Shown: positions 1-11,862 of the stretch, piece by piece
Layout: every line of letters begins with the position of its first letter
Numbering within the stretch: the stretch's first letter is position 1
Origin: Maribacter arcticus
Lineage (GTDB): Bacteria > Bacteroidota > Bacteroidia > Flavobacteriales > Flavobacteriaceae
NCBI RefSeq assembly: GCF_900167935.1
Contig: NZ_FUYL01000001.1
Location: 1-64,000, forward strand
Length of the DNA: 64,000 bases
Reading direction: 5' to 3'
Translations under genes and position numbers: made by a program
The notes under the pieces: model-generated
What the model was told of the DNA's origin: nothing
The model's database searches: none
What the model saw: the letters and a program-made list of their open reading frames with translations, nothing else

Positions 1-1
1 G

Positions 2-202
2 AATCTTTTATTTCTATGTTCCTTTAATGCTTGTAAGCACAACAAGGCTTGCAAGGAAGTTTATGAGCGAATAGTGAATAAAGGAAAGAGTAAGAAGCTT
101 GCATTGATTGCTGTAGCTAACAAACTACTCAAACAGTCTTTTGCTATTGCAAAATCTGGAAGACCATATGATGAAACTTACGTTTCAATATTGCCTAGAT
201 AA
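2..202 (+). CDS. IS110-family transposase, C-terminal fragment
   Basis: An open frame of 66 codons runs in from the left edge and ends with TAA at 200-202. Its product contains ACKEVYERIVNKGKSKKLAL followed by IAVANKLLKQSFAIAKSG, which I recognise as the C-terminal tail of the transposase_20 domain, where the conserved serine of these DEDD/serine recombinases also lies. IS110 transposases cut and paste through a circular intermediate and are guided by an element-encoded bridge RNA. The start and the catalytic N-terminal RuvC-like domain are outside the window, so intactness cannot be judged. Confidence 0.75.
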   Translation, partial: NLLFLCSFNACKHNKACKEVYERIVNKGKSKKLALIAVANKLLKQSFAIAKSGRPYDETYVSILPR

Positions 203-227
203 ATAGAAGATAGATCGAATAAAAAAA

Positions 228-259
228 GCTCAAAGAATCAAGTTATTGAATCTATGAGC
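228..259 (+). other. Possible structured segment downstream of the IS110 transposase
   Basis: GCTCA at 228-232 can pair with TGAGC at 255-259, and inside it TCAA and TTGA can close a GTTA loop. It lies in the noncoding right end of the element. In IS1111-type members of the IS110 family the guide (bridge) RNA is encoded downstream of the transposase, so this could be part of it. The pairing is short and could be chance. Confidence 0.2.
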
Positions 260-318
260 CTGGAATAGTATTGTCTCAGATTAAGGAAGAATTTACTTGT
301 TTTTTACCTCAGTTCTTT

Positions 319-331
319 GTTGGCGGTAGTT
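319..331 (-). repeat. Cassette-end core, downstream copy for the 337-1377 gene
   Basis: GTTGGCGGTAGTT on the plus strand is, with one mismatch in 13, the reverse complement of AATTACCGCCAAC at 1389-1401. The two copies bracket the 337-1377 gene, lying 5 nt beyond its stop and 11 nt before its ATG. In coding orientation the gene is therefore enclosed as GTTGGCGGTA ... TACCGCCAAC, the arrangement of the R boxes of an integron cassette. Confidence 0.6.
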
Positions 332-336
332 ATTCT

Positions 337-1377
337 TTATTTTTTTATAATTCCTGTGTAATATTCAATAGTTTCTCCATTGTATTGCCAAATTCCATCT
401 CCTCCACCTATCCATAAATTTCCTTCTTTATCTTCTACTACTCCAAAAAACATTCTTTCTGTTTTGAAAACTTCTGTAATTTCTAATTTCTCATCAATCA
501 ACGAACTGGCTTCTATTCGCTTTAGTGTGGAAGAACCTCCTTTAAGCATGCCTGTATACCAAAAACCTCCTTTCGTATCTTCATAAATCTTCCAAACATC
601 TGGTAATTCATGTGTAAAAGTGTTGTTGCGATGTTTCCATAGACCACTACTATCAACGAGCCAAATGTTATTTGACTTATCTTCTATTATTGACCAAACA
701 TTGAAGAATGATTTGCCTTCGTCATTTTTTATTTCAGTAAAGGTATTTCCATCGTAAAGCCCTGCATTTCCTCTTGTCCCAAACCAAATATTTCCTTTAT
801 TATCCTCTAAAATTGTGTTAATGTCATTATGAGGTAAACCGTCTTCTAGTGTGAAATTCGTAAACTTACTTCCGTCATATTTACTTAAACCACCTTGCCC
901 TCCAATCCATATATTTCCAGCTTTATCCTCATAAACACACATATTTCTTAAATGACCAAGTCCATCTTTTGTAGTGAAATTTGTAACAGCACCAGTTTCG
1001 GAATCAATGCGAAACACACCTGATTGGTCACTTGCAATCCAAATATTTTCTTTGCTATCTTCTAAAACATCGAATGCATACCAGCTTTCAATACCTTCTG
1101 GTTTCACTAATTTAGTAAATGAATCTCCATTGTATCGAACTATATCATCATAAGCTGCTATTAATAATCTCCCTTCATTATCCAATTTGATATTTCTTGT
1201 TATCCTTTTAGGCGCATTAGGTTTGAAAATGGTGTCAAATTTTGAAATTACAGAAAAAGTTTTGCCTACATTAATTACCAAATCATTTTTGCTATCCCTC
1301 TTATTAGTATTATGCTTCTTTGTTTTACATGAAATCGTAAAAACTAAGATTAATAATATGTATTTAAATCTTTGCAT
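337..1377 (-). CDS. Lipoprotein with two-component-regulator propeller repeats
   Basis: 346 residues. The N-terminus has a short hydrophobic signal and a lipobox ending in Cys (TISC, about residue 17), so it should be a lipoprotein. The rest is made of repeats of the Reg_prop type (for example NIWIGGQGGLSKYDG, NIWFGTRGNAGLYDG, NLWIGGGDGIWQYNG), each a blade of a seven-bladed beta-propeller like the periplasmic sensor part of hybrid two-component systems. No membrane segment, histidine kinase or DNA-binding domain follows, so it is a free-standing propeller of unknown ligand. It lies between inverted core motifs (319-331 and 1389-1401) and looks like the cargo of a gene cassette. No promoter was recognised directly upstream. 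Confidence 0.8.
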   Translation of the reverse strand: MQRFKYILLILVFTISCKTKKHNTNKRDSKNDLVINVGKTFSVISKFDTIFKPNAPKRITRNIKLDNEGRLLIAAYDDIVRYNGDSFTKLVKPEGIESWYAFDVLEDSKENIWIASDQSGVFRIDSETGAVTNFTTKDGLGHLRNMCVYEDKAGNIWIGGQGGLSKYDGSKFTNFTLEDGLPHNDINTILEDNKGNIWFGTRGNAGLYDGNTFTEIKNDEGKSFFNVWSIIEDKSNNIWLVDSSGLWKHRNNTFTHELPDVWKIYEDTKGGFWYTGMLKGGSSTLKRIEASSLIDEKLEITEVFKTERMFFGVVEDKEGNLWIGGGDGIWQYNGETIEYYTGIIKK

Positions 1378-1388
1378 TTTCTGTTTTT

Positions 1389-1401
1389 AATTACCGCCAA
1401 C
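1389..1401 (-). repeat. Cassette-end core, upstream copy for the 337-1377 gene
   Basis: AATTACCGCCAAC, the inverted partner of 319-331. On the minus strand it reads GTTGGCGGTAATT and sits 11 nt before the ATG at 1377. It also forms the right end of the folded element at 1399-1535. Confidence 0.6.
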
Positions 1402-1535
1402 GTGTTTGTGTATGGTTAGTTGCGTGGTTAAGCAACTAATTTAGCAAACAAATACATGCCAGAGAAAATTCCGAAGGAATTTTCCAAATAAGCACTTGCC
1501 AAAGCAATTAATTATACACGGTGTTACCACACGTT
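1399..1535 (-). repeat. 137-nt foldable attC-like element between two cassette-like genes
   Basis: Outer arms AACGTGT (1399-1405) and ACACGTT (1529-1535) are complementary. Inside them GTGTATGGTTAGTTGC (1408-1423) pairs along all 16 positions, three as G-T wobbles, with GCAATTAATTATACAC (1504-1519). Between the arms lie two further hairpins: AGTTGC/GCAACT (1418-1423 and 1432-1437, an alternative partner for one arm) and a perfect 9-bp stem GAAAATTCC/GGAATTTTC (1464-1472 and 1476-1484). Unequal unpaired stretches separate the outer and inner stems, as in integron attC sites. The element fills the whole gap between the two genes. The cores do not match the canonical GTTRRRY box, so calling it attC is an inference. 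Confidence 0.55.
1523..1532 (-). repeat. Cassette-end core, downstream copy for the 1537-2169 gene
   Basis: GTTACCACAC on the plus strand lies 4 nt beyond the stop codon of the 1537-2169 gene. Its exact reverse complement is at 2172-2181, just before that gene. This private 10-bp pair differs from the pair around the neighbouring gene but has the same GTT...AAC polarity. Confidence 0.55.
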
Positions 1536-1536
1536 T

Positions 1537-2169
1537 TTATTCTATTTCATCAATCGGAATATTCAATAAATCTCCGTCATAATGAACTTCGTCTTTGTTA
1601 AATTGTTCTTTTGTAAACGCTTTTAATTTCTTTTCAGGTTTTAAATATTTACCCAAAGCCTCGAAATTTAGTAATTCATTAAATGTCAGAGATGTTCTTG
1701 AAATTTCAAATTCCGTATTTGGGAATTTTCGAGAATATTGTAATTGGTCGAAATATTGTCCTTGTAGATATAATGTTTCGTTTTCAGATATTTTTATATA
1801 AAATCCAGAACCTAAATCGTAAGTTTCTTTTCGCTTATATACTTTTTGCGTTTCTATTTTCAGAACTTGTGCTTTTCCGTTTTTAATTTCGTTTTCAATT
1901 TTTCTATTCCAGCCAATTTCTCCGTTTTTATTCATCCAATAAATCACAATTCCAACTGAAATTATTAACAATGGAATTAAAATCAGAAGTTGTGTTTCAG
2001 ATGCTACTTTGTCAACAAACTTGTCATAAAGCAACAAAGGTGCTAAAAGAACAAATGTCATTCCAATGAATTTCATTCCGAAATTTTCAAAGTGTTGCCA
2101 AAGCGAATTTTTCCTGCTTTTAAGTTCTTTAATCTCTTCTGGATTATATGGACGTTCAGTTTTTCTCAA
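1537..2169 (-). CDS. Predicted membrane protein of unknown function, cassette-borne
   Basis: No family recognised. The frame is open up to an ATG at 2217, but the first 16 codons of that version are read through a 26-bp palindrome (2186-2211) and the cassette core (2172-2181). I prefer the TTG at 2167-2169, giving 210 residues starting RKTERPYNPEEIKELKSRK. After a charged N-terminal segment come two hydrophobic stretches (FIGMTFVLLAPLLLYD and LLILIPLLIISVGIVIYW), then a soluble domain of about 130 residues rich in beta-like segments. It looks like a two-TM anchor with a cytoplasmic or periplasmic domain. Its close fit between the inverted cores 1523-1532 and 2172-2181 suggests a mobile cassette. 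Confidence 0.6.
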   Translation of the reverse strand: MRKTERPYNPEEIKELKSRKNSLWQHFENFGMKFIGMTFVLLAPLLLYDKFVDKVASETQLLILIPLLIISVGIVIYWMNKNGEIGWNRKIENEIKNGKAQVLKIETQKVYKRKETYDLGSGFYIKISENETLYLQGQYFDQLQYSRKFPNTEFEISRTSLTFNELLNFEALGKYLKPEKKLKAFTKEQFNKDEVHYDGDLLNIPIDEIE

Positions 2170-2171
2170 AT

Positions 2172-2181
2172 GTGTGGTAAC
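2172..2181 (-). repeat. Cassette-end core, upstream copy for the 1537-2169 gene
   Basis: GTGTGGTAAC, the perfect reverse complement of 1523-1532. On the minus strand it reads GTTACCACAC and is followed after 2 nt by the proposed TTG start. It marks the 5' border of the two-gene array. Confidence 0.55.
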
Positions 2182-2185
2182 AATT

Positions 2186-2211
2186 GTATATAGAACATAT
2201 GTTCTATATAC
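2186..2211. repeat. 26-bp perfect palindrome 1 (core GAACATATGTTC)
   Basis: Every base from 2186 to 2211 pairs with its mirror position around 2198.5. The central dodecamer is GAACATATGTTC with alternating TA flanks. It stands 4 bp from the cassette core at 2172-2181. It could be a dimeric regulator operator, a recombinase site or a cruciform. Confidence 0.7.
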
Positions 2212-2223
2212 TTCCAATATAAA

Positions 2224-2249
2224 ATATATATAACATATGTTATATATAT
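2224..2249. repeat. 26-bp perfect palindrome 2 (core TAACATATGTTA)
   Basis: A second perfect palindrome of the same length, centred at 2236.5, exactly 38 bp from the centre of palindrome 1. Both share the central decamer AACATATGTT but differ just outside it (G...C against T...A), so each arm has covaried to keep the symmetry. The flanks are (AT)n, which makes part of the symmetry easy to obtain by chance, but the shared core is not. Confidence 0.7.
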
Positions 2250-2370
2250 CTTTTATATTTAATCAAATCTAATAAAGTATCAATGGTTATCGATAAGTAT
2301 AATCATGGTATGCGAATAATATGCGTTGATTTTCCTTTAACTTAATCAACTTTTATTGGATTGAAATTGA

Positions 2371-10497: not shown

Positions 10498-11862
10498 ATG
10501 CAAATACATTTTATTGCTATAGGAGGAAGCGCCATGCACAATTTAGCACTGGCTTTAGAGCACAAAGGATATAAGATTACAGGTAGTGATGATGTTATTT
10601 TTGAGCCTTCGAAATCGAGGTTGCTAGCAAAAGGATTGTTGCCAGATGAATTCGGATGGTTTCCTGAAAAGATAAATGCTGATTTAGATGCCATTGTTTT
10701 AGGCATGCATGCAAAGGCAGATAATCCTGAATTACTAAAAGCACAAGAATTAGGATTGACCATTTATTCGTATCCAGAATTTTTATACGAGCAATCAAAA
10801 AACAAAACGAGAGTAGTTATTGGTGGTAGTCATGGTAAAACTACGATTACGTCAATGATTTTACATGTACTTAATTTTCATGATATTGAGGTTGATTACA
10901 TGGTTGGGGCACAGTTAGAAGGTTTTGATAGAATGGTTCATTTGACCGAGGATAATGACTTTATCGTTTTAGAAGGAGATGAGTACTTGTCCTCACCAAT
11001 AGATAGGCGACCAAAGTTTCATTTATATCAGCCCAACATTGCTTTATTGAGCGGTATTGCTTGGGATCATATAAATGTATTTCCAACTTTCGAGAACTAT
11101 GTGGAGCAATTTAAAATTTTCGTTGACAGTATTGTAAAAGGTGGTTCCATTACCTATAATGTGGAAGACGAAACTGTAAAACAAGTAGTTGAAGCATCTG
11201 AAAATGCCATTCGTAAATTACCATATACAACCCCAGAATATAGTGTAGAAGATGGTGAAACTCTTTTAGAAACTTCGGAAGGACCAATGCCTATTGAAGT
11301 ATTTGGCAAACATAACCTAAGTAATTTGGCTGGTGCTAAATGGATTTGTCAGAACATGGGTGTTGATGAAGACGATTTTTATGAGGCAATTGCCACCTTT
11401 AAAGGAGCGTCGAAACGACTAGAAAAGATTGCAGAAGGCAATTCGAGCATTGCATATAAAGATTTTGCACATTCACCAAGTAAAGTGGCGGCAACGACAA
11501 AAGCGGTTAAAGAACAGTATCCTGATAGAAAACTAATAGCTTGTTTAGAGCTGCATACCTACAGCAGTTTTAACCCAGAATTTTTAAAGGAATATAAAGG
11601 TGCTTTAGATGCTGCCGATGAAGCTGTTATTTTCTTTCTACCAGAATCGGTAGCTATTAAAAAATTAGATGTTGTTACTCCAGAACAAATCTCAGAAGCT
11701 TTTCAAAGAAAAGATGTAAAGATTTTTACCGATGCAAAATCGTTTCATGAATTTTTAGAAAATCATCAATATAAAAACTCCACATTGTTGTTAATGAGTT
11801 CAGGTAATTATGGCGGATTCGATTTAGATAAGTTACAGGGTTTAATGGCTGGTACAACGTAA
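10498..11862 (+). CDS. mpl: UDP-N-acetylmuramate:L-alanyl-gamma-D-glutamyl-meso-diaminopimelate ligase
   Basis: 454 residues, usual length for Mpl. The enzyme reattaches recycled murein tripeptide to UDP-MurNAc using ATP in the cytoplasm. The Mur-ligase N-terminal Rossmann domain opens with IHFIAIGGSAMHNLA, the ATP loop is GGSHGKTT (about 112-119), followed by the central HINVFPTFENY region and a C-terminal domain (YKDFAHSPSKVAATTKAV). The ATG at 10498 is preferred over the in-frame TTG at 10492 because it gives the standard MQIHFIAIGG start and lies suitably behind the -7 box. Confidence 0.95.
   Translation: MQIHFIAIGGSAMHNLALALEHKGYKITGSDDVIFEPSKSRLLAKGLLPDEFGWFPEKINADLDAIVLGMHAKADNPELLKAQELGLTIYSYPEFLYEQSKNKTRVVIGGSHGKTTITSMILHVLNFHDIEVDYMVGAQLEGFDRMVHLTEDNDFIVLEGDEYLSSPIDRRPKFHLYQPNIALLSGIAWDHINVFPTFENYVEQFKIFVDSIVKGGSITYNVEDETVKQVVEASENAIRKLPYTTPEYSVEDGETLLETSEGPMPIEVFGKHNLSNLAGAKWICQNMGVDEDDFYEAIATFKGASKRLEKIAEGNSSIAYKDFAHSPSKVAATTKAVKEQYPDRKLIACLELHTYSSFNPEFLKEYKGALDAADEAVIFFLPESVAIKKLDVVTPEQISEAFQRKDVKIFTDAKSFHEFLENHQYKNSTLLLMSSGNYGGFDLDKLQGLMAGTT

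Follow-up and report, generated by a model that had tools for sequence, protein, structure and literature searches.

We analysed a 64,000-nt stretch of the Maribacter arcticus genome (NZ_FUYL01000001.1, positions 1 to 64,000; hereafter the window) and found that two neighboring genes near its start are cassettes, each enclosed by its own inverted core, with an attC-like hairpin between them. The features described below make it very probable that the two genes form an array of an integron-like platform, one that would combine a XerA-type tyrosine recombinase, sites folded from the bottom strand, and a palindromic attachment site (attI). An initial annotation of the window had suggested either a divergent Bacteroidota cassette system or something like a cluster of attC sites lacking integron-integrases (CALIN). 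A divergent cassette system is supported; the array is not a plain CALIN because it has kept an attI site. The features of the array are listed here, with cores defined by an inverted-repeat search and by sequence.

1..318, + strand: 3′ part of an IS110-family insertion sequence (IS); the contig breaks inside it
319..328, − strand: R″ core of cassette 2 (3′ end), gene strand TACCGCCAAC
337..1377, − strand: cassette 2 gene, 346 aa, two-component-regulator-propeller (Reg_prop; Pfam PF07494, 1.2e-24)
1392..1401, − strand: R′ core of cassette 2 (first bases), gene strand GTTGGCGGTA
1402..1522, − strand: attC-like element of cassette 1, 121 nt between cores (blastn, covariance model, covarying stem); spacer 1402–1407, L′ arm 1408–1423, apical part, L″ arm 1504–1519, spacer 1520–1522
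1414..1419, + strand (noncoding, "bottom"): G1414 and G1419, conserved G·T wobbles of the L stem, paired with T1513 and T1508 (alignment column pairs 23/128 and 29/123)
1523..1532, − strand: R″ core of cassette 1, gene strand GTGTGGTAAC
1537..2169, − strand: cassette 1 gene, function not assigned (Pfam search, nothing over cut-off); an in-frame TTG lies within the cassette at 2169, and the mechanical list of open reading frames (ORFs) has the start at an upstream TTG, 2217
2172..2181, − strand: R′ core of cassette 1 (first in the array), gene strand GTTACCACAC
2178..2259, − strand: attI-like site overlapping the first bases of cassette 1 (81/82 identity to the attI of G013:C45, L081); palindromes 2186–2211 and about 2224–2249, a 6-nt spacer, then GTT

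The inverted repeats of the window span 1522–1536/2168–2182 (15 nt, 93%) and 319–332/1388–1401 (14 nt, 93%). In + strand coordinates, the exact cores within them are GTTACCACAC at 1523–1532 with GTGTGGTAAC at 2172–2181, and GTTGGCGGTA at 319–328 with TACCGCCAAC at 1392–1401. The core pair that the initial annotation had placed around each gene is therefore present, with 10 perfect bp apiece; it had left unmentioned that in both pairs these are followed by one mismatch and then three further pairs. On the + strand this mismatch is a wobble at position 11, namely G329/T1391 in the core of cassette 2, with three more pairs after it, and G1533·T2171 in that of cassette 1. The inner 16-nt arms of the element and its unequal spacers (6 vs. 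3 nt) were likewise as described.

Cassettes tile into arrays with private cores

We scanned for tiled cassettes using perfect GTT/AAC cores of at least 9 bp and gaps of 108–128 or 172–192 nt, ranges that were fixed after the first arrays had been seen. With these settings, 74 loci carrying a recombinase of the kind described below (L094, L095, L097, and L101 are omitted from this count) yielded 73 chains comprising 296 cassettes. Block-shuffled copies of the same loci yielded five chains, each of two, and control stretches from elsewhere in the genome, 125 kb in total and about 106 kb distinct owing to overlaps, yielded none. At least three tiled cassettes were present in 41 out of 59 recombinase loci of at least 4 kb, with no chain of three in the controls. 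At a core length of at least 8 bp, chains of three appeared in 42/74 real loci versus 7/74 shuffled ones, and also in two control loci. In the named collection, 14 of 80 scanned loci had a chain of at least two; L215, L270, L276, and L288, with AT-rich or odd cores, resemble chance.

Within this genome, contig C17 carries nine cassettes end to end (gaps of 117 or 181–185 nt) and contig C9 carries an array directly behind a 377-aa tyrosine recombinase; the largest arrays hold up to 11 tiled cassettes. Arrays are composed of single genes in one orientation with a palindromic site after each. The longest ORF runs in the direction of the array in 145 out of 165 unique cassettes, with a median coverage of 92% of the cassette, and the 30 pairs of elements at most 6 kb apart in the genome all lie on one strand (30/30). 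Core pairs were found repeatedly around other cassettes, and the left core follows the start core of its own cassette, both as the initial annotation had anticipated. There were 105 distinct core 10-mers among 169 cassettes.

The R boxes would pair well only in the circle. At array junctions, R″ and the next R′ matched at a mean of 5.8/10 positions (7/131 perfect), whereas the match of 9.7/10 within a cassette is high by construction, since a core length of at least 9 was required of every cassette in the set and biases this value upward; positions 11–14 and the junctions are free of this selection. The canonical integron core consensus is R′ GTTRRRY/R″ RYYYAAC. Cores in the 169 cassettes follow GTT[GA][TGC][CGA], apart from a single exception at position 4 and another at position 6, in line with the misfit to GTTRRRY that had been pointed out at the start. 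Private inverted cores, although real, had to be dropped as a novelty because the canonical IntI integrons of the phylum show them too (25 cassettes, cores of at least 9).

The element folds better on the bottom strand

In a covariation alignment of 36 short elements, the 16-bp L stem had changes on both sides at 12/16 pairs, with 98 such cells compared with 23 in shuffles (0/500). The true register paired 97.6% of cells, compared with 27%–44% for slid pairings. That figure holds for the strand opposite the genes; on the gene strand only 82.7% of cells were paired. Two positions, T·G opposite the genes and A·C on the gene strand, account for most of the difference. Counted after AAC, the mark was found at L position 15 in 126/127 elements and at position 10 in 104/127. 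By computed energy, the bottom strand was more stable in 109 out of 127 elements and the top strand in 14 (equal in four), compared with 69 versus 56 after shuffling.

The R stem carries the same kind of mark at position 11, which is A/G in 99/112 ten-base cores. Among nine-base cores (n = 53), it is A/G in register in 28 and via a one-base bulge in 18. Overall, 145/165 cassettes have the mark, 18 of them through the bulge, with about three more pairs beyond. Of 25 canonical IntI cassettes selected for cores of at least 9, one has A/G as its first mismatch.

In IntI systems, extrahelical bases are given as the main factor of strand choice in the available portion of PMC6393395. We found no conserved extrahelical base in the L stem of the 36 elements (6/36 have an extra base). 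Since conserved wobbles are present and a conserved extrahelical L-stem base is not, we infer that the T·G wobbles do the strand-choice work here. The proposed single-strand mechanism is well supported by sequence.

A XerA-type recombinase is linked to the arrays

A search with PF00589 identified nine tyrosine recombinases in the genome. The statement in the initial annotation that there is no integrase is correct within the window (the sole PF00589 match on contig C8 lies at 135 kb) but fails genome-wide, since the C9 array follows a recombinase. This 377-aa protein stops 46 nt before the first cassette and is encoded on the same strand as the array. The expected co-occurrence of a tyrosine recombinase with arrays was seen elsewhere as well. 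C9-type recombinases are present in 32/60 genomes (this genome and its relatives) at 1e-60, and a 12-row profile detected relatives in 83/296 genomes of the order at 1e-70, covering 46/91 genera. Among the named carriers are an uncultured Maribacter, Winogradskyella ursingii, and Seonamhaeicola aphaedonensis; in W. ursingii and S. aphaedonensis, tiled cassettes lie downstream of the recombinase. The catalytic residues R, K, H, R, H, and Y are unchanged in 12 out of 12 recombinases. Just upstream of the recombinase in one locus, a divergent gene (L010:2656–3033) encodes a 125-aa protein with zinc-ribbon-like cysteines.

Against the integron integrase model TIGR02249, the recombinase scored 211.8 bits in two split stretches, below the cut-off of 265, and it passed the XerA model NF040815 (230.3 vs. 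220). The NCBI name of the latter is "site-specific tyrosine recombinase/integron integrase," so that some proteins of the family may already carry that label. Two active-site motifs are separated by 61–62 aa in the new recombinases, 67–69 aa in the XerC/XerD-like proteins of this genome, and 103 aa in 26/30 canonical IntI proteins (in the other four, the motif pattern failed or matched elsewhere). The additional domain specific to IntI (I2/patch III) was not found in the new recombinases. In a tree of 58 rows, IntI was monophyletic (100/99), set on a long branch, and did not include the new family; this tree excludes the canonical rows L110 (a fusion) and L112 and holds few other recombinases, too few to place the sister of IntI. 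Canonical IntI over the cut-off occurred in 84/296 genomes of the phylum, of which one (G095) belongs to the class of M. arcticus and none to its family or order or is its own genome, with at most seven candidates scored per genome.

Some recombinases are shorter, with a match starting after the N-terminal domain, and have arrays on the other side in divergent orientation, as in classical integrons. There are thus at least three platform layouts, in two of which the recombinase points toward the array. The short recombinases of G027, G032, G010, and G029 had four, seven, 12, and two cassettes, respectively. On the 5′ side, we found three tiled cassettes (L295) for G030 (L095) and 13 cassettes in chains over 67 kb, some unconvincing, for G036 (L094). 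In G036, scattered tiled cassettes extend over about 61 kb (G036:C13:965–62363; L291–L294) and end near the divergent short recombinase, and the listed element matches of this contig are all on the minus strand; the region is possibly a very large array of the new kind. An essential role for the N-terminal domain was ruled out, as the shorter recombinases also border arrays. We also discarded the notion that this ∼105-aa domain is HARP-like or another DNA-binding domain: no sequence in PDB matched it below E 0.4, and a weak match to DUF5710 (0.0037) came from a single member.

attI lies between the recombinase and the first cassette

The recombinase stop codon is followed by a palindrome whose sequence varies and, after about 6 nt, by the first GTT. 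We recognized a first cassette in 54 loci; its distance from the stop is 44–47 nt in 26 loci and 26–130 nt in the others. The attI thus adjoins the integrase gene at the point where cassette 1 starts. Palindrome arms of at least 8 bp were found in 24/36 loci of subfamily I (25/36 by script; L162 was set aside, where another palindrome had been found, over the first core). In the second recombinase subfamily, the attI site is about 100 nt long.

The window attI (82 bp) has its near-identical counterpart behind the recombinase of G013, a different species. A degraded integrase beside the window attI was considered and rejected: a tblastn search of the recombinases against the 1.5 kb upstream returned a best E of 0.12, which is not significant. 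With an attI and no recombinase beside it, the window array is best read as a platform whose gene was lost or as an attI that was copied alone; it would have lost, or never had, its own integrase and kept its attI.

Elements are widespread in Flavobacteria

A covariance model (CM) was built from the 36 short elements, seven of them from this genome. It found 49 copies in this genome at E ≤ 0.01, including the window element at 8.3e-27, a value to be read in light of that copy being one of the model-building sequences. By blastn (E ≤ 0.001), the window element matched 14 places in its own genome, itself included, several of them near contig ends. As exceptions to the arrangement that the initial annotation had foreseen, some element matches are solitary (e.g., C22:79900 and C5:135225).

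Copies were found in 45/60 genomes, including 36/36 of the genus of M. arcticus, and in 98/198 genomes of the phylum at E ≤ 0.001; 100 phylum genomes with no CM match served as a negative control. Two regions located by their element matches, L301 and L302, hold two and nine cassettes. The cassette system is widespread in Flavobacteria and relatives. Four genomes (G147, G216, G096, and G112) have both canonical IntI and strong matches to the new element, and some phylum members may harbor the two systems side by side.

Cassettes occur in changed contexts and insertion sequences mark attC

One array of G001 holds two copies of an 864-nt cassette plus its 118-nt element; the copies are 100% identical, have different neighbors on both sides, and lose their identity at GTT on either side. 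G005 has four copies and G010 three of a cassette of 333–338 nt, which show 86%–93% identity between the genomes and mostly have different neighbors; in both genomes, the first copy comes after the same attI sequence. Units in changed contexts are what cassette insertion predicts, and do not in themselves demonstrate the action of the enzyme. In L092 (G007), a 600-nt cassette (GTTGTAGTGC) is repeated at least four times within one region, the copies being 100% identical; two of them have a different sequence after the core, replacing the usual hairpin element.

Ten proteins from cassette regions comprised a GNAT acetyltransferase, an oxidoreductase, a glycosyl hydrolase, an NmrA protein, two methyltransferases, an S9 peptidase, two DUF6090 proteins, and one unmatched protein. 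The DUF6090 cargo lies at L019:2685–3443 and L020:342–1373, and a DUF6090-like start motif was seen in 5/142 cassette proteins; DUF6090 was not mentioned in the literature among the matches listed.

The 318 bp of the IS end at the edge of the window are identical on contigs C22, C17, and C8 and 99% identical on C9, where PF02371 (Transposase_20) was matched at 4.8e-7. Its insertion point is between the AAC end of the cassette 2 core and the hairpin part of the attC of that cassette. On C8, C9, C17, and C22, the AAC end of a core precedes the left end of the IS; the right end abuts the L″ arm on C13, on C17, and at four places in G001 and G014. Of the two remaining right ends, a G001 copy continues into IS sequence and a G011 copy meets the contig end. 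These placements make the insertion sequences independent witnesses of the putative attC site. On the minus strand of L063 in G001 (about 11621–11770), the IS right end occurs twice in a row, as if by double or tandem insertion at one attC.

A model for cassette recombination and its alternatives

We propose that the XerA-type recombinase encoded next to the C9 array would recombine the folded noncoding (bottom) strand of the 118/182-nt elements, possibly also in trans. It would cleave a single-stranded substrate at GTT and join the GTT/AAC cores to the palindromic attI behind its own gene. Single-gene cassettes would be captured, excised, and reordered as circles, and each cassette, holding both R-box halves, would have good pairing only in the circle. 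Strand choice, which in IntI integrons is the role of extrahelical bases, may here depend on the conserved T·G pairs of the R and L stems.

Several observations weigh against this model. R boxes are mismatched in the array state, so excision from an array would have to tolerate imperfect pairing. Contig C13 has eight element matches on one strand (E ≤ 0.01) yet no chain at cores of at least 8, with single core pairs only and degenerate array cores, and L300, the best element match of the phylum sample, has no tiled cassettes (0). Three tiled cassettes are missing from 18/59 recombinase loci of at least 4 kb, the longest ORF does not run in the array direction in 20/165 cassettes, and attI arms are shorter than 8 bp in 12/36 loci. 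Kinship among sequences also inflates the shuffle-based covariation scores.

An ordinary IntI integron, in which the window would be a CALIN served by a canonical IntI elsewhere, would have the same cassette logic and the private cores of the IntI arrays of the phylum. The recombinase has some similarity to TIGR02249, and the tree groups the new family with IntI (100/99) against two XerC/XerD-like rows, which also speaks against a wholly separate origin. We regard this explanation as very unlikely, given that the TIGR02249 cut-off is missed, the IntI insertion is absent, IntI forms a separate clade, no IntI over the cut-off is present in the genome, family, or order among the candidates scored, the core motif differs, and the A/G pattern at position 11 is seen in 1/25 canonical cassettes. 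A double-stranded, dif-like system is also unlikely, if less readily set aside. Here the recombinase would act on duplex cores as Xer proteins do and the hairpin would be merely a cruciform or a spacer, which would suit the duplex-style palindrome of attI and the match to the XerA model; IntI itself retains ancestral duplex activity, according to the available portion of PMC4792948. Such a system does not readily account for a stem that covaries while its sequence changes, for strand asymmetry at three conserved positions with no obvious duplex meaning, or for private cores that have little common duplex core beyond GTT.

That the elements are intergenic RNA structures (terminators or attenuators) around unrelated genes, with cores that are chance or RNA stems, might be suggested by the position of the hairpins between codirectional genes. 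The transcript would be the top strand, however, where the conserved positions are A·C mismatched and fewer cells pair; moreover, the core pairs enclose whole genes and travel with them, and an Rfam search of eight element copies (E ≤ 1) returned two matches, both far below the gathering score. We consider this explanation highly improbable. The same holds for transposon-type mobility, in which each gene would be a small element moved by a transposase: perfect terminal repeats do surround single genes, but the repeats differ between neighbors, the repeated unit carries the 118-nt element on one side only, and the order of the array is anchored at attI behind the recombinase.

Discussion

The integron-like platform that we propose shares much with IntI chromosomal integrons: one-gene cassettes in one orientation, genes that are each followed by an attC hairpin, private half-cores that match up in the circle, an attI beside a tyrosine recombinase gene, a bottom strand that folds better, and IS110/IS1111-type insertions at one end of attC. 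It differs from them in a recombinase that has no IntI insertion and lies outside the IntI clade, in the core motif, in an L stem with conserved T·G wobbles and no conserved extrahelical base, in a palindromic attI unlike the canonical form, and in a recombinase that in two of three layouts points to the array instead of away from it. With XerA/XerC/XerD and dif it shares the enzyme superfamily, including a match to the XerA model. Dif systems have a single dif site and are not known to carry cassette cargo, whereas the new recombinase is dedicated and linked to arrays of cassettes with specialized strand-marked sites. As architecture is that of an integron but the insertion, clade, and core consensus are not those of IntI, we assign the system to an IntI-independent integron lineage.

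The available portion of PMC4792948 presents CTXphi integration by XerCD on a folded single strand as the only process resembling cassette recombination, and states that the I2 domain has not been identified outside IntI. As with IS1111-attC elements (available portion of PMC11187229), an IS110-type element sits here at one fixed end of a cassette attC; here the contigs break inside it and show its ends, and it marks the site but does not belong to the cassette system itself.

Integrons are on record for Bacteroidota (PMC8618304, in part), and beyond Chlorobi and Ignavibacteriae, IntegronFinder 2.0 reported a single complete integron in Bacteroidetes, in Salinibacter (PMC9024848, in the portion available). 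In the literature on Bacteroidetes and Flavobacteria integrons or unusual integrases there was no description of such a system among the matches listed; preprints and most subscription papers fall outside this scope, and an earlier description is possible. The best reading is an IntI-independent lineage of integrons; private cores as such are already seen in canonical IntI integrons of the phylum.

We think it likely that Bacteroidota contain a second, IntI-independent integron lineage of XerA type, in which a three-position T·G code would replace extrahelical bases and I2, and that single-strand recombination would then have arisen twice or would predate I2. IntegronFinder-type surveys detect integrases by the IntI-specific domain, according to the available portion of PMC9668308, so such tools would overlook a large reservoir of mobile genes. 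A platform lacking I2 makes the requirement for I2, and the evolution of folded single-strand recombination, testable.

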